DNA of 64,000 nucleotides, taken from the NCBI RefSeq assembly GCF_014192515.1, contig NZ_JACHYB010000001.1, forward strand, positions 1,860,001-1,924,000, given 5' to 3'. The notes under the pieces were generated by a model, which saw only the letters and a list, made by a program, of their open reading frames with translations, searched no databases and had not been told where the DNA came from. The stretch comes from Microbacter margulisiae. GTDB taxonomy: Bacteria; Bacteroidota; Bacteroidia; Bacteroidales; Paludibacteraceae. Position numbers and translations under genes: made by a program. Positions 21,240-30,535 of the stretch are shown here, in pieces; the stretch's first letter is position 1; each line of letters begins with the position of its first letter.

Positions 21240-21871
21240 CATAACTTCTCAATTTTCTCAGGTGTTTCAGCGTGTGATAATTTACACGCTACACTATTCA
21301 ACTATTGAATTTTCGCATGTTATACAACACCTGCAAACATGCAATTTTTTAAAATGGAACAATTGATTATCAGGAACATACAACAACTTGTCTTACAAGA
21401 GGCATCCGTCCATTCAATCCCGACCTGCTTTGTGCCTTGACACAAAAAGGAAGCAAAAAATTAACTTCGATGAAAGCACTATGTTCGGCAGAACCAAAAT
21501 GAGATTTTGTCTCTGCCCTCACTGAAGCGTGCTTTTCAAGACTGCATCCGCTTTCGCTCAAAAAATTAGCGTTCATTGGCTCAAATCGCTCAAACAAGAA
21601 CAATTTTAACCATCTGCTTCACTTGTTTGTGCTCACCGGAGGGGCTCATTTGTTTGAAAGGCTTTACGTATAAGCAGGCCGCTTTGCGGATATCATTTTT
21701 ATTTTCCATTACTTAGGTTGTATTTAATCATGTTTTCTGCAAAAATGTGCAGAAAAAAGTTGGAAATTAAAAAAATAATATTGACCTTTGGAACAAATAG
21801 GAGGTAATGAAAAAATTGATCTCAAATGGTCGGTTGAATCCATTAGAGGATATTACGTTAGAATAGCAAGA
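21240..21871. other. Left flank of the accessory island, non-coding
   Basis: No believable gene lies here. Structures seen are the hairpin GCGTGT..ACACGC (about 21270-21289) and TTTTCTGC..GCAGAAAA (21733-21756), the latter just upstream of the recombinase. The stretch at 21370-21690 looks like decayed coding or repeat DNA. The boundary between the old transport operon and the island probably falls in this region. Confidence 0.4.
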
Positions 21872-23518
21872 ATGAATGCTTTCAAAATTACTCATCGCAA
21901 CGAAATGCGCATCTGCATTGACTTTCCGTACAATACAGAGTACATTACGAAACTAAAACTAATACCAGACATCCGATGGAGCCGGACGCTTAACGCCTGG
22001 CATATTCCTTACACGAAAGAAGCGTTTGCTCAGTTGAAAAAACTATTTCCAGATGTTGTATATGAGCATACTCGTAACATACCCGAAAATAGCCCGATAC
22101 TCATTCCTGTTTTAAAAAAAAGAATACAGACGCATGTTGCATTAGGAAATAGCAAGACTCAACCTGCAACTACGCCCTGCATTGAAATTGCTGTATCAGG
22201 CAAACAAATAGTAGTAAAAATGCCTAAAAACGAAACCGATTTACAATTTATCCGTTCGTTTAAGTATGCACACTGGAATAAGACGCAATTTTACTGGACT
22301 GTTCCGAACTTTGGGAATAATGCAGATAAATTGAAAAACTATTTTGCTGAGCGAAATGTAAAACTAACAGAACATAAGCCAATTGGCACTTTCGACAACG
22401 ATAACCCCAAGTGTGGCAAAGATGAATTTATAGTTATAAATAACTCAAACTTGCTATTGAATCTCTATTTCAGTTTTAATAAAAACTTAAGTCAGCAACT
22501 AAAGCAAATACCTTATTGCAAGTGGAATGGAGATAAACGATGTTGGGAAATACCCTATTCCGAAAAGTTTTTGGATGAAGTAAAACGTCTTGCCGAACAA
22601 AATGCATTGCTCCTTATTTATCATGAAGAAAAAAAACTGAAGGTACTACCCCGTAAGTCGAAATTGGATATACAAAACTATCGTTACTGTCCGCAAACCT
22701 ATATCGACAAACTCAGAGAGTTGCGTTACAGCAAGAACACGCTGGAAGTGTACAGGGGTATGTTTGAAGAATTTATCAATTATTACGATGAAGTTGATTT
22801 TGATGATATTACCGAACGAATGATTATTGACTTTTTACGCTATTTAGTAACCGAACGGCATGTGTCCACCTCGTATCAAAACCAGTCCATCAATGCTATT
22901 AAATTTTACTACGAACGGATACTGGGTGGTAGTCGGAAAGTGTATCTGATTGACCGTCCGCGTGAAGAGAAGTTCCTGCCAGAAGTGCTAAGTACCGAAG
23001 AAGTAACCGCCATACTCAACGCCACCGAAAACCTGAAACACAAAGCCATATTGATGACTATCTATTCGGCAGGTTTACGTATAGGAGAAGCAATTAATTT
23101 AAAAATAAAGGACATTGATTCTCAGCGTATGCAAATACGAGTTGAACAGGGGAAAGGCAAAAAAGACAGATATACTTTGCTTAGCAATAAAACATTGGGA
23201 ATACTCCGTAAGTACTTTTTGCAGTATAAACCTAAAGTGTGGATATTTGAAGGGGCAAAAGGAGAACAATATGCAGCGCGAAGTATACAAGAGATATTAC
23301 GAAAATCAGTAGAAAAAGCCGGTATCAAAAAACATATTACCGTACATACATTGCGACATAGTTTTGCGACGCATCTGCTCGAAGCGGGTACGGATTTACG
23401 ATACATACAAAATCTACTTGGACACGCAAGTAGCAAAACGACAGAGATTTATACGCATATAACTACCAAAGGATTCGACCAGATAGTTAGTCCCCTGGAT
23501 AAATTAACCATTTTGTAA
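21872..23518 (+). CDS. Tyrosine recombinase with triplicated N-terminal W-rich module (integron-integrase-like C-terminus)
   Basis: This site-specific recombinase of 548 residues starts from the ATG at 21872; a TTG at 21788 would give 576. The C-terminal catalytic domain is complete: Arg near 403 (SAGLRIGEA), HTLRH near 492-496, GHASSKTTEIYTH and the nucleophile Tyr near 527. It ends VSPLDKL, like the SPLDAL end of integron integrases. A SAM-like core-binding domain (about 270-370) precedes it. The first 245 residues hold three copies (about 12-61, 112-159, 194-242) of a module with pattern I-P..W......W.IPY. I see no long IntI-type insertion in the catalytic domain, so IntI identity is not established. 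It heads the island and faces the same way as the cassettes. Confidence 0.85.
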   Translation: MNAFKITHRNEMRICIDFPYNTEYITKLKLIPDIRWSRTLNAWHIPYTKEAFAQLKKLFPDVVYEHTRNIPENSPILIPVLKKRIQTHVALGNSKTQPATTPCIEIAVSGKQIVVKMPKNETDLQFIRSFKYAHWNKTQFYWTVPNFGNNADKLKNYFAERNVKLTEHKPIGTFDNDNPKCGKDEFIVINNSNLLLNLYFSFNKNLSQQLKQIPYCKWNGDKRCWEIPYSEKFLDEVKRLAEQNALLLIYHEEKKLKVLPRKSKLDIQNYRYCPQTYIDKLRELRYSKNTLEVYRGMFEEFINYYDEVDFDDITERMIIDFLRYLVTERHVSTSYQNQSINAIKFYYERILGGSRKVYLIDRPREEKFLPEVLSTEEVTAILNATENLKHKAILMTIYSAGLRIGEAINLKIKDIDSQRMQIRVEQGKGKKDRYTLLSNKTLGILRKYFLQYKPKVWIFEGAKGEQYAARSIQEILRKSVEKAGIKKHITVHTLRHSFATHLLEAGTDLRYIQNLLGHASSKTTEIYTHITTKGFDQIVSPLDKLTIL

Positions 23519-23805
23519 ATATGATTTGGACAATAGAAAAACAATATTTATCTTGCGGGCGAAATTTATTACATAAAACACAAAGAGCATCTAATAATCA
23601 ACTATGCTTATTCCAATATACGCAATAAATAAAAAACGCCTACTTTACAATAAACAATTATATTTCAATTTATTACAACAACAAACATGCACCCATAAGG
23701 CGGATATATACGCAACTCAGTTGCGCATACAGGAATTGGATAGCGCATACATAGATGTTAGCAACTATGCAATGAAAGGCATTCACATCTGTAAATTTTA
23801 GAATT
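23519..23805. other. Spacer between recombinase and first cassette gene
   Basis: These 287 AT-rich bases are where a primary recombination site (attI-like) would be expected if this is an integron-like system. I see GCGCATAC repeated (around 23722 and 23743) but no defined site. A 65-codon frame at 23604-23801 has low-complexity composition and no family resemblance; I do not call it a gene. Confidence 0.35.
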
Positions 23806-24489
23806 ATGAGAATAAATTATCTTATTAAATTATTTTTTAGTTCTTTCTTATACTTCTTATTCTATGTAATCTTATTTGTATGTGCTGGTCGATTAAATTA
23901 TTGGCAAGGATTGGTTTATGTTTTGATCGGGCTTATCATGTATGTGATATTAAAATACACTGATTTGAGGATAGATTCTGAACTATTAAAAGAGCGTTCA
24001 AAGATTGGAGAAAATACTAAGGATTGGGATAAGATAATATTGGGGTTAATTTTATTTGTTAAAATATCGATGTGTATAGTTGCTGGACTCGATTCTGGCC
24101 GTTATCATTGGTCGCCAAATTTTCATTGGAGCATATATCTTTTAGGAATATTTCTAACAGCTTTAGGACAATTAATATTTCTTATTGCTCAAAGACAGAA
24201 TAAGTTTTTCTCGAGTACAGTAAGAATCCAAGCCGATAGACAACATATTGTTTGTGATACAGGATTATATAAGATAGTTCGACATCCAGCTTATATGAGT
24301 TCAGTAATTGAATCTCTTGGATTTCCATTACTTTTTGGTTCATTATGGAGTGTCATACCGATATGTGTTTTAATTATACTGTTGTTTGTTAGAACAAATT
24401 TAGAGGATAGAACATTAAAGAATGAATTGAAGGGTTATCTCGAATATTCGGGAAAAACTCGATATAAGATTATTCCTTATGTATGGTAA
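23806..24489 (+). CDS. Isoprenylcysteine/phospholipid methyltransferase-like membrane protein
   Basis: This 227-residue protein has about five hydrophobic helices and the C-terminal ICMT/PEMT-type SAM-binding signature: TGLYKIVRHPAYMSSVIESLGFPLLFGS, then RTNLEDRTLKNEL and GYLEYSGKTRYKIIPYVW. It should methylate a lipid or a thiol/amine substrate at the membrane, which cannot be specified. It is the first gene after the recombinase, and its stop is followed 20 bases on by an attC-like inverted repeat, so I read it as cassette 1. A frameshifted relative from another branch of the family is at 13295-13776. Confidence 0.8.
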   Translation: MRINYLIKLFFSSFLYFLFYVILFVCAGRLNYWQGLVYVLIGLIMYVILKYTDLRIDSELLKERSKIGENTKDWDKIILGLILFVKISMCIVAGLDSGRYHWSPNFHWSIYLLGIFLTALGQLIFLIAQRQNKFFSSTVRIQADRQHIVCDTGLYKIVRHPAYMSSVIESLGFPLLFGSLWSVIPICVLIILLFVRTNLEDRTLKNELKGYLEYSGKTRYKIIPYVW

Positions 24490-24746
24490 TGATTTAAAAT
24501 TATAAATATGCACAGTTGCTAACACGCAATATAGCCAAAAAGGGCATTTCTGGTATGCGTAGTTCATCACCCGCATCAATTTCATTGTATCTTGATAGTG
24601 ATGCTCTCCGCACTCCCTTTCAGGCCATATTGCCAACGTCAGACTGCGCAAAAACATCAGCGGATGTTTTTGACTAAGAGATTAGGACTACTAAAAGAAA
24701 AGTGATTAATTACTTGTGTATGTGAGCAATATTTTGTAAATTTATA

Positions 24747-24775
24747 GCATAATACATTCAACAACAGAATTATGC
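24747..24775. promoter_or_regulatory. Inverted repeat over the transposase start codon
   Basis: GCATAAT (24747-24753) and ATTATGC (24769-24775) are perfect inverted repeats, the second containing the transposase ATG. The structure could bury the start codon in RNA and limit translation, a common way to hold down transposition. Confidence 0.4.
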
Positions 24776-26250
24776 AACACATACAAGGCGAAGAACGAAA
24801 TCAGCTTCAAATGTTCTGTTTGGAGCAAATGGTAGAAGCCGACAGTTTCGTTCGGGTAATTGATTACTTTGTAGATACCATCGATTTGGAGAGTTTCGGA
24901 TTTCGGAACGTAAAGCTGAAGGAAGAAGGTCGTCCGCCCTATCATCCTGCTGTGCTAATGAAGTTGTATTTCTATGGCTACAGGTATGGTATTCGCTCTT
25001 CTCGTAAGATGGAACGTGAAGCTAGGTTGAATCTGGAAGTTCGCTGGCTCTTGTGTGAGCAGACACCTTCGGCACGCACCATCTGTATGTTCCGAAAAGA
25101 ATATGCCGAAAGCTTCAAAGCGATCTTTCGCAAGTTTGTTTTTCTGCTCAAAGAGTTGGGCTTGATGGAAGGAAAAACCATTGCCATTGATTCCTTTAAA
25201 GTGAGGGCACAAAACTCACTCAAGCACAATTACAATCAGAAAAAGATAGACCGTCAGCTGGAATATATCGACGGCAGAATAAAAGAATTTGAAGATGCAC
25301 TGGACGAGGCCGATTCGCAGGAACAAAAAACAGTACTGAAAGATAAAATAGCCGTACAGCAAAGTCGCATGGAGAAATATCAGGCTATCGAAGCCGAACT
25401 CAAAGAAACAGGCAAAGACCAGATAAGCACAACAGACCAGGATGCACAATCGGTAGTGTTACAACGGGGAATAACCGTGGTGGGATATAATATACAGGCT
25501 TCGGTGGATGCCAAAAACAAGCTCATTGCCCATTTTGATACAGGAGGAGTAAACGATACCAATGCATTGGGCACAGTGGCTGTTGCCACCAAAGAAGTGT
25601 TGCAGGTGGAGCAAATGGATGTACTGGCAGACAAAGGTTATCATACAGGGGAACAGATCAGGCAGTGTGAACAAAACGGAATCACCACCTATGTGTCGCC
25701 CAAAGAGCCGACTTCGAATGATCCGGATATTTTTCCGATAACAAGTTTTGTGTACGACACTGAAAAAGATTGTTACACTTGTCCGGCAGGAGAAACACTT
25801 ACAACCAATGGCACCTGGCTCACGCATAGCAGCAAAGGATATAAGTCGGCTTACAAGTTTCAACGATACAACAACCCGGCGAAATGTCGCCTGTGCGAAA
25901 TGCATAGTTTGTGTACCAAAAGTAAAAATAACGGCAGAAATATAGACCGCAGTGAGTTTGCTGCGGATGTAGAACAGAACAACCAACGAGTAAAGGAGAA
26001 TCCGGCCTACTACAAACAACGCCAGCAATTGGCCGAGCATCCGTGGGGCACACTCAAACGGCAACGGGGATTTGATTACGTACTGACCCGGGGAAAGAAA
26101 AATGTATTGGGTGAAGTAAGTTTGGTATTTATCGGCTACAACCTGAGCCGGTTGGCCAAGATTGACGGAGGGATAAATGCCCTGAAAAAATTCATTCTGG
26201 AAATAATGGCTTTGCTTTACCCGAAATGGGCTTGTTTAAAGGCCATTTAA
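24772..26250 (+). CDS. IS1182-family transposase
   Basis: This 492-residue DDE transposase has an N-terminal DUF772-type helical domain (MVEADSFVRVIDYFVD; RPPYHPAVLMKLYFYGYRYGIRSSRKMER), the first catalytic Asp in KTIAIDSFKVRAQ, an alpha-helical insertion (about 145-210), a second Asp in DVLADKGYHTGEQI and a zinc-ribbon-like cysteine cluster (CYTCPAGE; KCRLCEMHSLCTKS). The final Glu is in EHPWGTLKRQRGFDYVLTRG. Length and order are intact, so the element may still be mobile. Nothing indicates cargo. Confidence 0.9.
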   Translation: MQHIQGEERNQLQMFCLEQMVEADSFVRVIDYFVDTIDLESFGFRNVKLKEEGRPPYHPAVLMKLYFYGYRYGIRSSRKMEREARLNLEVRWLLCEQTPSARTICMFRKEYAESFKAIFRKFVFLLKELGLMEGKTIAIDSFKVRAQNSLKHNYNQKKIDRQLEYIDGRIKEFEDALDEADSQEQKTVLKDKIAVQQSRMEKYQAIEAELKETGKDQISTTDQDAQSVVLQRGITVVGYNIQASVDAKNKLIAHFDTGGVNDTNALGTVAVATKEVLQVEQMDVLADKGYHTGEQIRQCEQNGITTYVSPKEPTSNDPDIFPITSFVYDTEKDCYTCPAGETLTTNGTWLTHSSKGYKSAYKFQRYNNPAKCRLCEMHSLCTKSKNNGRNIDRSEFAADVEQNNQRVKENPAYYKQRQQLAEHPWGTLKRQRGFDYVLTRGKKNVLGEVSLVFIGYNLSRLAKIDGGINALKKFILEIMALLYPKWACLKAI

Positions 26251-26409
26251 GCAATTAATGAAAATGAATTTGAAAACCAATGGCTGAAAAATGGCATTCA
26301 ACAAACGAAAGCTATGGAAGCCTGAAATGATATAAAAATTGACTATAACGGGAATTAGAGGCGTTTTTGCGCAGACTCGCGTTATGCACAAGTTTAAAAA
26401 CGACACAAA

Positions 26410-26799
26410 ATGAACGACATTGAAATTCAAAAAGCGATTCAGGAAATAATGAAGCTTCAGCAAGCAAATAATAATTTGACTGTTGAGATTGGTCATCTAT
26501 CCGCTAAAGATGAGAACAAAAATACTATAGCAGGACATATTGAAGAGTTGACCAACAACAAAACGAGAATGGAGACAATAAGAAAATCAGTTGGTTTGTT
26601 CTATGCTGTATGGGAGTGCAATTGGAATGGTCAAACATTGATGCCTGAAAATGTTGTTTCTCCACAATTTGACACCAGAATAGACGCTGATAGCTACCTA
26701 ATAAACAATTTGAAATCAAAAAAAATAAAAGGCAAAAAAGAATTCGCAGTATTCCAAACTACTTTGAATGCTGACGGTAAATATGTTGGACACTATTAA
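26410..26799 (+). CDS. Hypothetical cassette protein with N-terminal coiled coil
   Basis: This 129-residue protein is not recognised. Residues 1-60 are charged and helical with coiled-coil spacing (IQKAIQEIMKLQQANNNLTVEIGHL), and the C-terminal half is mixed alpha/beta (VGLFYAVWECNWNGQTLMPENVVSPQF). It starts 29 bases after the GTTATG core of the preceding attC-like site and ends 10 bases before the next gene. The two genes therefore appear to form one two-gene cassette. AT-rich composition matches the rest of the island. No signal peptide or membrane segment is seen. Confidence 0.6.
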   Translation: MNDIEIQKAIQEIMKLQQANNNLTVEIGHLSAKDENKNTIAGHIEELTNNKTRMETIRKSVGLFYAVWECNWNGQTLMPENVVSPQFDTRIDADSYLINNLKSKKIKGKKEFAVFQTTLNADGKYVGHY

Positions 26800-26809
26800 A
26801 CTTTAAACT

Positions 26810-27316
26810 ATGGCAAAAATTAAAAACTATCAGCAATTCATTGAAGATGTTGCGGACAGAAACTTCAGACCATATGTAAAACGGTTTCAAGAACTAGCAG
26901 GACTTAGACCTACTGGCGTAGACGCTAAAGAAACGTATTTGATAGAGGTAACGTTTGACTTTGGAAACTCTTTGTTGGAGCACGAGAGTATTAAAAATTT
27001 CAAAAAGACAAATAACAGATATTATTTGCACCCGGAATTGACAAATCCTCCTGTAAAAGGACACTATCACGTAATTCCTTCTAATGGAAAGCAAGAAATT
27101 TATGCAGTAAATTTAGACGGGACTGCACATCACAAAGTAAACAAAGGTTATCAAATACCTACAAAAGAAGCGGACGAATTAAGAGGTCTTGGTGTTGACA
27201 TAAAAGACGATAGAATCATTGAAAGTATAGAGTTCTTAGAGAGTGACCAGAAACAATTATTGACTGAATCACTAAAACACGACTGCATATCAATATTCAT
27301 CGAAATAGAAGAATAA
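26810..27316 (+). CDS. Hypothetical cassette protein
   Basis: This 168-residue soluble protein is not recognised. It contains a histidine-containing central segment (VKGHYHVIPSNGKQEIYAVNLDGTAHHKVNKGYQIP) and an acidic C-terminus. The HYHV..DGTAHH region looks like a compact beta fold that could bind metal, but no known catalytic motif is complete. It follows the previous gene by 10 bases, so the pair is probably co-transcribed and may work together; a toxin-immunity pair is possible but unsupported. Its stop is followed within 10 bases by the best-preserved attC-like site in the island. Confidence 0.6.
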   Translation: MAKIKNYQQFIEDVADRNFRPYVKRFQELAGLRPTGVDAKETYLIEVTFDFGNSLLEHESIKNFKKTNNRYYLHPELTNPPVKGHYHVIPSNGKQEIYAVNLDGTAHHKVNKGYQIPTKEADELRGLGVDIKDDRIIESIEFLESDQKQLLTESLKHDCISIFIEIEE

Positions 27317-27324
27317 AACCTGTG

Positions 27325-27452
27325 CATAACAATGTATATACAAAATAGGCGAAATAGTAGTAAATTTAACGGTTTCAGCCCGCTTCAAAATCTTAACGGT
27401 TTGATAAGTTTGAAGCCCGCAATCGCCTACTTTGCATATACTTAACGTTATG
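27325..27452 (+). other. attC-like cassette boundary 2, intact doubly nested hairpin
   Basis: The outer arms pair over about 28-30 nt: CATAACAATGTATATAC..AGGCGA (27325-27352) with TCGCCTACTTTGCATATAC..GTTATG (27423-27452). The inner loop contains GCTTCAAA..TTTGAAGC (27382-27389 with about 27409-27416). The ends carry R''-like CATAAC and R'-like GTTATG. The total length of about 128 nt is within the known attC range. Cores deviate from the strict RYYYAAC/GTTRRRY consensus. Confidence 0.6.
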
Positions 27453-27478
27453 TTTAATTTTAAAAAATGAATCAAGTA

Positions 27479-27530
27479 TTGCAATCTCAGTAGAATTGTC
27501 TATCTTTGATACTATCAAATGATACTATCA
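27479..27530 (+). promoter_or_regulatory. fic promoter with tandem palindromic operators
   Basis: A TTG (27479-27481), a 19-nt spacer and TATCTTTG (27501-27508) fit the Bacteroidota promoter. TGATACTATCA, a perfect palindrome about its central base, occurs at 27507-27517 and 27520-27530, overlapping the -7 box and the expected start site. The fic start codon is 13 bases further on. Confidence 0.65.
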
Positions 27531-27543
27531 TAAATCAAAGAAC

Positions 27544-28503
27544 ATGAAACCACCGTATGAAATAACAAGTGAGATTTTAAAATTGACTTCCTCTATTTCA
27601 GAAAAGATAGGCGAAGTAAAATCTGCAAAACTAATTAAACCACCTACTGAATTACGAAAACGAAACAGAATAAAATCAATTCAATCATCACTTGAAATTG
27701 AAGGAAATACTCTTACAGTTGAGCAGATTACCGATTTGATTAATAACAAAAGAGTGCTTGCTCCTCCAAAAGACATTATTGAAGTAAAGAATGCTATCGA
27801 ACTTTATTCTAAGCTTAATGAATTTAATGCATATGAAATAGACTCTTTATGTCGTGCACATGGAATATTAATGAACACATTAATAGAAAATGCTGGACAA
27901 TTCCGAAAAACAGCAGTTGGAATTATGAAAGGAAATAATATCACACATGTAGCACCTTCAGGAGATATCGTTTTTCCTTTAATGAAAGATTTGTTTGATT
28001 ACCTAAAAAACGACAACGATATATTGCTAATAAAAAGTTGTGTATTTCATTATGAATTTGAATTTATTCACCCATTTATTGACGGAAATGGAAGAATGGG
28101 ACGATTATGGCAAACTATGATATTAAAAGACTATTCTCCAGTTTTTGAATACTTACCGATAGAATCACTTATTAAAGAACGCCAACAAGAATATTATGAT
28201 GTTCTTGGAAAATCAGATAATCAGGGGAAATCTACTGGTTTTATTGAATTCATGCTTAAAATTATCGATATTGCTTTAGAAGATTTATTGAAGACCCAAA
28301 ACCAAACATTAACTAGTATCGACAGAATAAGTATTTTTAAAAACTTTATTGGAAATGAATCATTTACAAGACAAGACTATTTAAGACATAATAAAGAAAT
28401 CTCAACTGCAACTGCCAGTAGAGATTTAAAGGAAGCCGTAAATAATGAAGTCATTGAAAAAACTGGAGAGAAACGTTTGACAAAGTATCGATATAAAAAC
28501 TAA
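27544..28503 (+). CDS. Fic-domain AMP-transferase (class II, N-terminal inhibitory motif)
   Basis: This 319-residue Fic protein has the complete active-site motif HPFIDGNGRMGR (about residues 176-187). Fic enzymes usually transfer AMP from ATP to target proteins. An N-terminal helix carries SLEIEGN (about 49-55), matching the (S/T)xxxE(G/N) inhibitory motif of class II Fic proteins, so the protein is probably self-inhibited. The C-terminal 60 residues (TRQDYLRHNKEISTATASRDLKEAV) look like a winged helix, suggesting DNA binding. Tandem palindromes over its promoter suggest autoregulation. It is a single-gene cassette between an intact attC-like site and a split one. Confidence 0.9.
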   Translation: MKPPYEITSEILKLTSSISEKIGEVKSAKLIKPPTELRKRNRIKSIQSSLEIEGNTLTVEQITDLINNKRVLAPPKDIIEVKNAIELYSKLNEFNAYEIDSLCRAHGILMNTLIENAGQFRKTAVGIMKGNNITHVAPSGDIVFPLMKDLFDYLKNDNDILLIKSCVFHYEFEFIHPFIDGNGRMGRLWQTMILKDYSPVFEYLPIESLIKERQQEYYDVLGKSDNQGKSTGFIEFMLKIIDIALEDLLKTQNQTLTSIDRISIFKNFIGNESFTRQDYLRHNKEISTATASRDLKEAVNNEVIEKTGEKRLTKYRYKN

Positions 28504-29222
28504 ACATAACACATAGACTTTCGTGCAGTCGGAACGACTCCCGATAAGATCGGGATCTACGACGCAGCATGAAAGGCAGGTTGAACTTAATTCCCGATAA
28601 GCAGGGACATCCACTAACGAGTGTAAAGAAGAGGAAGATAACTATGGGAAAAGCGGTGTGTTTTAGTGTTCCGCTTGAAGGAGAAAGAAAGACTACAAGA
28701 TAGATAAAAGTTTCACTGACGCAAGTGTTCCGATTGTTAGTTCAAGTCTAAGCGTAGCGGAGACTTGGACTGGAAATAGAATCAGTTTGTAACTGCATGG
28801 AAGTTGATAACCTCAATAGTTAGGGCACCGTAAAATAGTTGCGCCAAACAAGGGAGAGAACGAGAGGATTGTGGCATTACATGTATAAGCCCGGATTGGA
28901 CAGGAAACAAACAGCAGGTGATTATCTGTTCCATAGATATAGGGCGTTTAGTAGAGAACAACGCATGCGTTGTCTCTACAATAACCAAAAAACAACTGAA
29001 ATTAAAGATGAATGATCTAATCTGCTGAATCATTGATCTGATTAAATCGTAGTTCAGACAAAGGTGCGACAGTCAACGCTCCCGCAAATGGAACATCCCG
29101 TGCAACGGTGACCGCAAGTACGCATAGTCCCGATCGTTAGGGGCAAGGGCAAAAAAATGACAGTTGCGGGGATTAAATCGACTATTATCCGCATTATTTG
29201 CGTAGATTATTTTGTTATGCGG
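28504..29222. other. Structured non-coding insert inside attC-like boundary 3
   Basis: An ACATAACAC half-site follows the fic stop (28504-28512), and a TTTTGTTATGCGG half-site closes the region (29210-29222). Between them are about 690 bases without a credible ORF but rich in hairpins: CCCGA..TCGGG (28540-28554), CAAGTCT..AGACTTG (around 28743-28769), a near-perfect palindrome GTAGAGA..TCTCTAC (28951-28979) and TCCGCAT..ATGCGGA near the end. It could be a decayed group II intron or a chain of small repeats; I could not find a domain V. Confidence 0.4.
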
Positions 29223-29263
29223 AGAATAAACCCTATATTAGCCGCAAATTTAGCGGAGAATAA
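29219..29263 (+). repeat. GCGGAGAATAA direct repeat upstream of the second fic gene
   Basis: GCGGAGAATAA occurs at 29219-29229 and 29253-29263, the second copy ending two bases before the start codon and supplying its ribosome-binding site. The stem CCGC..GCGG (29242-29256) lies between. It may act on translation or as a short duplication at the cassette start. Confidence 0.4.
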
Positions 29264-29265
29264 CG

Positions 29266-30366
29266 ATGTATCTATACGAAAATAAAAATTGGCCGACTTT
29301 TGAGTGGAATAGTGACAAACTTTTACCATTACTTTCTCTTGTCCGTAACAAACAAGGCAGATTAATTGGAAAAATGGGGGCTTTGGGTTTTGAACTTCGA
29401 GACCAAGCGAATCTTGAAATCCTGACCCTGGAAATCATTAAATCGACTGAAATTGAAGGTGAAATATTAGATCCCGAACAGGTTCGATCTTCAATTGCCA
29501 GACGTTTAGGACTTGATGTCTCAGGATTGGTATATTCTGAAAGAAACGTGGATGGTGTTGTAGAAATGCTACTTGATGCGACAAGGAATTTCGACAAAGA
29601 ACTTGACAAAGACAGATTATTTTCATGGCATGCAGCATTATTTTCGGGTGGATACAATTTAATGTATAAAATAATCACAGGAAATTGGAGAGATGACTCT
29701 ACAGGTCCGATGCAAGTTATGTCTGGAGCATTAGGAAAAGAAAAGGTCCATTATCAGGCTCCACCGGCAAGTCAACTTGAAAATGAAATGCGAATCTTCT
29801 TCGATTGGTTTAATTTGGAACAAAATGTTGATTCGGTTCTAAAGGCTGCGATTGCACACTTGTGGTTTGTGACGCTTCACCCGTTTGAAGACGGAAACGG
29901 AAGAATTTCTCGCGCATTAAGCGATATGTTGCTTGCTCGTTCTGACGAACAATCGTACCGATTTTACAGCATGTCGACTCAAATACGGAAAGAGAGAAGT
30001 TCGTATTATGACATATTAGAGAAAACACAAAAAGGAAGTTTAGACATAACAAGCTGGCTCGAATGGTTCTTGAATTGTTTATTACATTCGATTGAAAGTT
30101 CGGAGAAACTACTTGAAAAAGTTATTTATAAACACGAATTCTGGCTACGAAACTCAAAAGTGACAATAAATGACAGACAGCGAAAAATACTAAACATGAT
30201 AATGAACGACTTCGAAGGAGTGCTAAATACGACAAAATGGGCAAAGATCGGAAAATGTTCACAAGACACAGCGTTACGTGACATTCAGGATTTAATAGGA
30301 AAAGGAATTCTGGCAAAAACTGAACAAGGGGGTCGAAGTACAAATTATGAATTGAAGACCAACTGA
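29266..30366 (+). CDS. Fic-domain protein with DUF4172-type N-terminus (class II)
   Basis: This 366-residue protein has the N-terminal domain often annotated DUF4172 (about 1-85: NWPTFEWNSDKLLPLLSLVR, GKMGALGFELRDQANLEIL), the inhibitory motif STEIEGE (about 60-66), and the intact Fic motif HPFEDGNGRISR (about 205-216). The C-terminal region (about 300-366; NDRQRKILNMIMNDFEG.., CSQDTALRDIQDLIGKGIL) is a winged-helix-like domain. It is predicted to AMPylate a cellular protein and to be self-inhibited. It differs from the upstream fic gene in its N-terminal domain, so the two are not a recent duplication. It is the last gene of the island, followed by an R''-like GCCTAAC at 30394-30400. Confidence 0.9.
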   Translation: MYLYENKNWPTFEWNSDKLLPLLSLVRNKQGRLIGKMGALGFELRDQANLEILTLEIIKSTEIEGEILDPEQVRSSIARRLGLDVSGLVYSERNVDGVVEMLLDATRNFDKELDKDRLFSWHAALFSGGYNLMYKIITGNWRDDSTGPMQVMSGALGKEKVHYQAPPASQLENEMRIFFDWFNLEQNVDSVLKAAIAHLWFVTLHPFEDGNGRISRALSDMLLARSDEQSYRFYSMSTQIRKERSSYYDILEKTQKGSLDITSWLEWFLNCLLHSIESSEKLLEKVIYKHEFWLRNSKVTINDRQRKILNMIMNDFEGVLNTTKWAKIGKCSQDTALRDIQDLIGKGILAKTEQGGRSTNYELKTN

Positions 30367-30393
30367 TTGAACAAAGTCCCAGCACTAACACAC

Positions 30394-30400
30394 GCCTAAC
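30394..30400 (+). other. R''-like half-site after the last cassette gene
   Basis: GCCTAAC matches the RYYYAAC consensus of integron attC left ends exactly and lies 28 bases after the second fic stop. No matching right arm was found before the ATPase gene, so the terminal site may be truncated. Confidence 0.3.
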
Positions 30401-30535
30401 GTCTATCCCAAAAAATGAAGAAATTGAGCTTGCCAACCGTAAAAACAAATGACCTAAGCACAAAGCCATAAGAATTGCTTTGGAGATAATGACAATGGCC
30501 CTGTATTTAAGTTTATAACCCATAATTTTGAATCA

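Follow-up and report, generated by a model that had tools for sequence, protein, structure and literature searches.

The window analysed here is a stretch of 64,000 nucleotides (nt) of Microbacter margulisiae DNA (assembly GCF_014192515.1, contig NZ_JACHYB010000001.1, positions 1,860,001 to 1,924,000 of the forward strand). This work concerns an element within it, seated between an ABC transporter permease gene and an ATPase gene, which is read below as a probable copy of an integron-like gene-capture system. The two flanking genes are 13 bp apart in one genome of the same genus (L198) and adjacent in another genome (L200), while in the window they are separated by 9.3 kb, and the 9.3-kb block is therefore an insertion. 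An earlier interpretation made from the letters and a list of open reading frames (ORFs), hereafter the sequence-only reading, had described a tyrosine recombinase ending in VSPLDKL and followed by four gene units on the same strand. The recombinase was indeed found, in an open frame spanning 21788-23518 and with a C-terminus of ...IVSPLDKLTIL; the start of most aligned relatives corresponds to residue 29 of the frame, encoded at 21872. The units (an ICMT-like methyltransferase, a two-ORF unit, Fic and DUF4172-Fic) are likewise present as ORFs, all but the two-ORF unit with Pfam matches, and the full gene order 3' of the recombinase, all on the same strand, is ICMT-like methyltransferase, IS1182-family transposase, two small ORFs, Fic and DUF4172-Fic.

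Three of the cassettes each open with a sequence whose reverse complement closes them (23756/24509, 26381/27316 and 27447/28496). Four boundaries with integron-like cores had been proposed, of which two stood and two proved to be partial. At 27325/27447, where a full nested hairpin had been claimed, the hairpin of site B is real: the bottom strand folded with a z of -3.77 as compared to -3.03 for the top strand, and 0 of 200 shuffles were equally stable for the bottom strand. The boundary at 24517/26381 is a single attC-like site, site A, with an IS1182-family element interrupting its R' core. In contrast, covariance model and folding indicated that 28504/29214 is not a whole site, with the 5' R'' part only, followed by about 690 bp with no clear gene, and that 30394 is a remnant with no hairpin. 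The approximately 690 bp 3' of the R'' of cassette 3 contain short repeats dispersed across related genomes of the genus, and about 127 bp at the end of the 28511-29213 stretch match one same-family and one same-genus genome. A group II intron was considered as the filler of site C and rejected, since Rfam gave no match at E ≤ 1. The coordinates of all features are presented in Table 1.

Table 1. Features of the element in the window (positions of the window) and site clusters elsewhere in the same genome.
Feature	Position	Strand	Evidence or remarks
Whole element	21240..30535	+	Seated between ABC transporter permease (ends 21239) and ATPase (starts 30536)
Tyrosine recombinase	21872..23518	+	PF00589 E 1e-41; PF13495 E 7e-15; TIGR02249 218.9 bits (cut-off 265)
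Three repeats of N-terminal module	21872..22645 (about 21872-22066, 22184-22399, 22421-22645)	+	Repeat alignment and hidden Markov model
Putative attI	23740..23771	+	GCGCATACATAGAT then GTT at 23757, the start of cassette 1; repeated at cassette 1 end
Cassette 1, ICMT-like methyltransferase	23757..24524	+	ORF 23806-24489; ends agree 15/16; PF04140 E 1.5e-9
attC-like site A, R' core split by insertion sequence	24512..24649	-	42.3 bits, E 4.1e-7; not in training set
IS1182-family insertion sequence at R' core of site A	24640..26378	+	NF033551 364 bits; inverted ends; CG/TTA seat
Cassette 2, two ORFs with no family match	26381..27330	+	ORFs 26410-26799 and 26810-27316; matching ends
attC-like site B, whole	27319..27458	-	93.6 bits (in training set); bottom strand z -3.77; top strand 14.2 bits
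Cassette 3, Fic protein	27447..28510	+	ORF 27544-28503; matching ends; PF02661 E 4.6e-19; PADLOC SoFic 155.8 bits
Stretch with no clear gene, expected place of site C	28511..29213	.	Rich in dispersed repeats
Cassette 4 (probable), DUF4172-Fic	29214..30402	+	ORF 29266-30366; PF13776 E 5.8e-32; end degraded; no site by covariance model
Own-genome site clusters/sites	C1 283-286, 443-454, 543-551 and 924-928 kb (L219-L222); 96 kb (L218)		No family recombinase

Relatives of the recombinase were then used to evaluate the sites. A contig scan identified at least 80 loci; the 82 recombinase matches were reduced to 69 with enough downstream sequence and then to 60 regions with a length of at most about 20 kb. 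Six of these contigs (L128, L130, L131, L152, L156 and L162) break off no more than about 300 bases from the recombinase match, a pattern expected of repeats in short-read assemblies. A symmetric gapped scorer, in which every mismatch was penalised alike and no strand was favoured (score ≥ 15), revealed 126 palindromes in 829 kb of sequence downstream of the recombinase and 11 in 579 kb upstream of it; this scorer superseded a fixed-geometry scan over 105 loci that had given 17 forward and 3 reverse hits, compared to 3.3 expected per strand. The covariance model R1 was built with 53 aligned bottom-strand sites, chosen for a mismatch at +15 and for their position downstream of a recombinase. 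In the stem of this alignment 94.8% of cells were paired, with a covariation of 0.722 as compared to 0.175 for shuffles and at most 0.133 for slid pairings. On 97 loci, R1 gave 275 matches at E ≤ 0.01, of which 266 were downstream and co-oriented, 2 upstream and co-oriented, and 7 upstream and divergent; excluding the 52 training sites, which are so placed by construction, 214 of 223 matches were downstream of and co-oriented with the recombinase.

Where at least 3 kb of sequence lay downstream, a downstream site was present in 50 of the 53 loci whose recombinase has at least 330 aa and in 3 of the 13 loci with a shorter one. The long-recombinase loci that supplied no training site gave a similar picture (15/18), and thus the covariance search of relatives confirmed the expectation of the sequence-only reading that related sites lie beside other members of the family. 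Sites (E ≤ 1e-5) occur in at least 188, and the recombinase family (E ≤ 1e-60) in at least 104, of 395 genomes of the phylum of the window, these counts being lower bounds because few candidates were scored per genome, 8 for the sites and 3 for the recombinase. Sites were found in 93 of the 104 genomes with the recombinase against 95 of the 291 lacking it (Fisher p 7e-25), and when the 34 genomes supplying training sites were left out, in 59 of 70 against 95 of 291 (p 2e-15). Two arrays had sites of unusual size: L050 (11701-18839) carries its own subtype, with seven sites of 174-177 nt compared to the usual 142, and a Rufibacter locus (L032, 12771-20731) has a different size class of short sites, about 58-61 nt, with a GGCCGACGGCC loop.

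The ends of cassettes matched each other across arrays as well. In 30 cassettes shorter than 900 bp, taken from sites with a mismatch at +14 to +16, the pairing between the start of a cassette and its own end was 0.87, 0.83, 0.83, 0.87, 0.93, 0.90 and 0.53 at outward positions 1-7, fell to 0.03 at position 8, and was 0.77, 0.83, 0.80 and 0.63 thereafter. The first six outer positions gave 0.82, 0.80, 0.65, 0.43, 0.56 and 0.34 for R'' against R' of one site, and 0.65, 0.49, 0.36, 0.23, 0.57 and 0.38 for other pairs within the same array. Position 8 was occupied by C.A (G.T in the bottom strand) in 31 of 41 cassettes, by G.A in 9 and by A.A in 1, and by C.A in all three window cassettes with matching ends. 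For classical cassette ends the comparison comprised 13 pairs only, possibly with missed sites between them. The start of a first cassette was located 3' of the recombinase stop codon in 26 of 50 arrays, at 60-130 bp in 16 of these 26 and at 238 nt in the window, and such junctions are often preceded by sequences like CATATATAAACAA; the junction after the stop, matching the end of the first cassette, was taken as a putative attI.

The array strand carries the longest ORF in 32 of 37 cassettes, and the median site spacing is 924 bp. When the 37 cassettes that passed the end-match filter were compared to all arrays (matches longer than 120 bp listed), site sequences recurred at 67-97% identity, within a genus and in other genera, and for two loci (L129 and L151) even in another class, at 93-97%. 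Only 1 of the 37 cassettes has a long stretch (981 bp, 76%) in common with another array, which agrees with the variable gene content between sites that had been anticipated.

Further analysis of the sites revealed a one-sided mark. At +15, A was opposite C in 143 of 196 non-training sites (275 matches minus 52 training sites and 27 that could not be resolved), and the mirrored form was found in 0. Sites chosen blind to mismatch type showed the same, with A.C at +15 in 90 of 119 (80 of 112 distinct) and the mirror in 0. Read on the bottom strand, this A.C pair 15 nt inside the core is a T.G wobble; secondary mismatch positions are +10 and +11/12. In classical integrons, according to a passage of PMC2727003, the first extrahelical base is the main determinant of strand choice. 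The 34 classical attC sites of the same phylum had 76 extra bases in the 5' arm and a single one in the 3' arm, with A.C at +15 in 0 of 33, whereas in the 196 new sites the extra bases were evenly distributed, with 42 in each arm. These classical controls were 34 palindromes (27 upstream and 7 downstream; score ≥ 14), a few of them likely chance palindromes, from 20 IntI loci, which were used in place of earlier control loci (L065-L105) that had given few palindromes (8 loci with a match). DNA folding showed the bottom strand to be more stable in 96 of 113 new sites, by a mean of -2.6 kcal/mol, and in 19 of 26 classical sites, by a mean of -0.8 kcal/mol. On the 20 classical IntI loci R1 found scarcely any signal (best 22.8 bits, E 0.026). 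Spacer asymmetry was also considered as a special mark of the new family and was dropped, because classical sites show it too.

The catalytic domains of the recombinase, PF13495 and PF00589, lie in its C-terminal half. The best NCBIfam match was TIGR02249, the IntI profile, below its cut-off (Table 1); NF040815 gave 216.7 bits (cut-off 220), XerD 191.2 (cut-off 329.6) and XerC 182.1 (cut-off 335.15). The stretch specific to IntI, 31 + 10 = 41 IntI-only columns, is filled in 0-2% of the rows of the recombinase family, and together with the score below the TIGR02249 cut-off this corroborates the suggestion that the enzyme lacks the IntI-specific insertion; 7 of 13 miscalled Xer frames of 8-66 aa kept in that alignment say nothing on the insertion. 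The phylogenetic tree, with 51 of 130 rows and with Xer proteins only if longer than 250 aa, placed the 10 IntI rows of the same phylum in one clade (100/100), apart from all 35 rows of the recombinase family, and placed 6 Xer-like proteins from the own, same-genus, same-family and same-order genomes in a separate clade (100/100). The search of 7 same-genus genomes gave no whole recombinase of the window family, the matches listed there being short pieces only. In one same-genus genome (G005:C59:13535-13847), pieces of the start and of the end of a family recombinase lie side by side, with no sites at E ≤ 0.1 there.

The placing of sites beside the recombinase family, the variable content and the matching cassette ends support the earlier proposal of an integron-like system of Bacteroidota. 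We consider, with a probability of about 0.85, that it is a gene-capture system with strand choice marked by wobbles, in parallel to IntI/attC, and that the window carries one copy of it. As judged from the sequences, the system acts like an integron and yet falls outside the strict IntI definition, because both the additional domain and one-sided extrahelical bases were looked for and neither was found; it could even be a fully separate class of system. Three points call for caution. The first palindrome scorer, a cruder one, gave site B 13.8, barely over 6 shuffles (up to 12.8), and was too weak on this site, which is the reason why homologous loci were brought in. The invariance of +15 in the R1 alignment (49/53) and the placing of its sites are not independent evidence, since the training sites had been selected for both; the pairing and covariation of the stem, in contrast, do count as independent. 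Finally, the tree leaves unsettled the branching among groups of the family and whether IntI arose within it.

This last point, together with the same overall plan, the similar 3'-over-5' spacer asymmetry of classical sites and the fact that TIGR02249 is the best profile match at 218.9 bits, even if under its cut-off, would suit an ordinary integron, the integrase of which has lost the additional domain while its attC sites are classical and the wobbles represent drift. We regard this as unlikely: the insertion is missing across the whole family and not in a single lineage, the IntI of the same phylum form a clade of their own, the site model hardly sees classical loci, and a wobble kept at a fixed position in most sites and never mirrored is not drift.

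A module of about 75 residues occurs three times in the N-terminal half of the recombinase, by which the extra N-terminal modules noticed in the sequence-only reading are substantiated through repeat alignment and hidden Markov model. One to three such modules occur in most array-bearing members of the family. The N-terminal part of the window recombinase had no Pfam match at E ≤ 10, and the identity of the module as HARP from sequence was rejected for that reason. In a structure search with the whole recombinase the results were filled by the catalytic core, so the module was folded alone. The third module (AlphaFold2, with 27 relatives) reached a mean pLDDT of 89, with the predicted order strand-strand-helix-strand-strand-helix-strand. 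The closest solved structures, all of them weak, were the T4 UvsW N-domain, the XPB damage-recognition domain, eIF1/aIF1, SMARCAL1 HARP and MutS domain I; the translation factors eIF1/aIF1 score like the DNA-distortion domains against the predicted module (6.8-6.3, weak scores). A role of the modules in the reading of distorted DNA is a guess from this predicted fold.

Sites also followed the module: where the downstream sequence was at least 3 kb long, 47 of the 49 loci in which it was detected have downstream sites by the covariance model, compared to 6 of the 17 in which it was not. In a second alternative explanation, the short relatives that lack the module would be the active enzymes, with the long recombinases as passengers in the arrays. 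Module-less recombinases adjoin each of the 7 upstream divergent matches, at four loci (L136, L165, L056 and L146), in an arrangement as in classical integrons, and the own genome has a 283-aa family member on its second contig, both of which this explanation would accommodate. However, downstream sites accompany the long recombinases at nearly all loci and those shorter than 330 aa at few, and no site match at E ≤ 0.01 was found near the module-less copy of the own genome (L164); passengers of this kind are therefore quite improbable.

The IS1182-type element that splits site A gave further indication of the core. The own genome contains three whole copies (95-100% identical) and one diverged copy in two pieces, and all four (window, L228, L229 and L230/L231) are seated at a CG / TTA junction in the same orientation. 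This constant seat provides an independent mark of the C^GTT core and points to a core-seeking insertion sequence. The site model recognised the left flanks of two of the four copies (L227, with 42.3 bits, and L229, with 22.5 bits and E 0.0019) but not those of the remaining two.

The own genome as a whole gave 16 site matches at E ≤ 1, in several clusters, with the sites of each cluster facing one way, a direction that most of the ORFs share. Apart from that of the window, these clusters have no recombinase of the window family beside them. The regions at C1 283-286, 543-551 and 924-928 kb thus correspond to CALIN, with at least two co-oriented sites and no adjoining family recombinase. The cargo of the own-genome clusters includes AbiJ-like, AbiGi-like, HNH, trypsin-like and methyltransferase proteins. 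Although such sites away from a recombinase, and a third gap of the window made up partly of dispersed repeats, might suggest mobile repeats, terminators or other repeats gathered near a tyrosine recombinase with no cassette being moved, this is very improbable, given the nearly fixed orientation and side of the sites relative to the recombinase, the better fit of cassette starts to their own ends than to those of other cassettes in the same array, the unrelated genes carried by the same site families, and a one-sided A.C mismatch for which terminators have no need.

Under the gene-capture reading, the layout read from the sequence comprises the recombinase, a putative attI after its stop in many relatives, and cassettes that share one orientation and mostly carry a single gene. 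Each cassette closes with a folded site, commonly of about 124 nt, whose outer arms match the start of the same cassette. Cassettes would be excised as circles and inserted again through recombination of the folded bottom strand at its C^GTT core. The enzyme would tell the bottom from the top strand by means of fixed G.T wobbles (outer 8, inner +15 and often +10 or +11/12) and not by extrahelical bases, and the wobbles would make the bottom hairpin the better-paired strand. The N-terminal modules, with a fold near that of DNA-distortion-binding domains, might help to read the hairpin or the wobbles, which is the least certain step. Read-through could provide for the expression of cassettes located 3' of the recombinase.

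Compared to classical integrons, the system shares a tyrosine recombinase, folded imperfect palindromes with GTT-type R cores, asymmetric spacers, co-oriented cassettes, an attI-like junction beside the recombinase, and site clusters that lack an integrase. It differs in the lack of the IntI-specific additional domain, in an array that lies downstream and co-oriented (266 of 275 matches) where the classical integrase is divergent, in fixed G.T wobbles in place of one-sided extrahelical bases, in cassette-end pairing that extends outward for 12 nt and is almost always interrupted by a mismatch at position 8, and in the N-terminal modules of most array-bearing members. Same-orientation exceptions are known among IntI; the integrases of the Treponema-type inverse integrons are IntI proteins in the same orientation as their cassettes. 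The orientation of recombinase and cassettes would thus be a likeness to these, and the lack of the additional domain in the window family a difference from the Treponema proteins. XerC/XerD and archaeal XerA differ from the new family in that the latter is linked to cassette arrays, and the tree puts the 6 Xer-like proteins in a clade of their own. Parts of PMC9668308 describe typical Spirochaetota IntIs as generally in reverse orientation, and archaeal integrons as having attI immediately downstream of the integrase gene and IntIs that keep the additional domain; the position of the putative attI after the recombinase gene would be shared with archaeal integrons, whereas the additional domain is not. 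Searches of open-licence PubMed Central papers gave no description of a wobble-marked cassette system.

The chances are about even that the Bacteroidota hold a second, independent integron solution, composed of a recombinase with no insertion, added modules with a fold near those of MutS domain I and the XPB damage-recognition domain, and wobbles that choose the strand and hence the orientation of the cassette. True IntI, scoring over the TIGR02249 cut-off, was found in 84 of 296 genomes of the phylum, and only 1 of these 84 belongs to the class of the window; an independent solution would explain this near absence in spite of common cassette arrays. If the interpretation is true, the sites and recombinases counted across the phylum would represent a large unseen reservoir of mobile genes, and the two systems would offer a natural comparison of two codes for strand choice, bulges with the IntI insertion and wobbles with no insertion.

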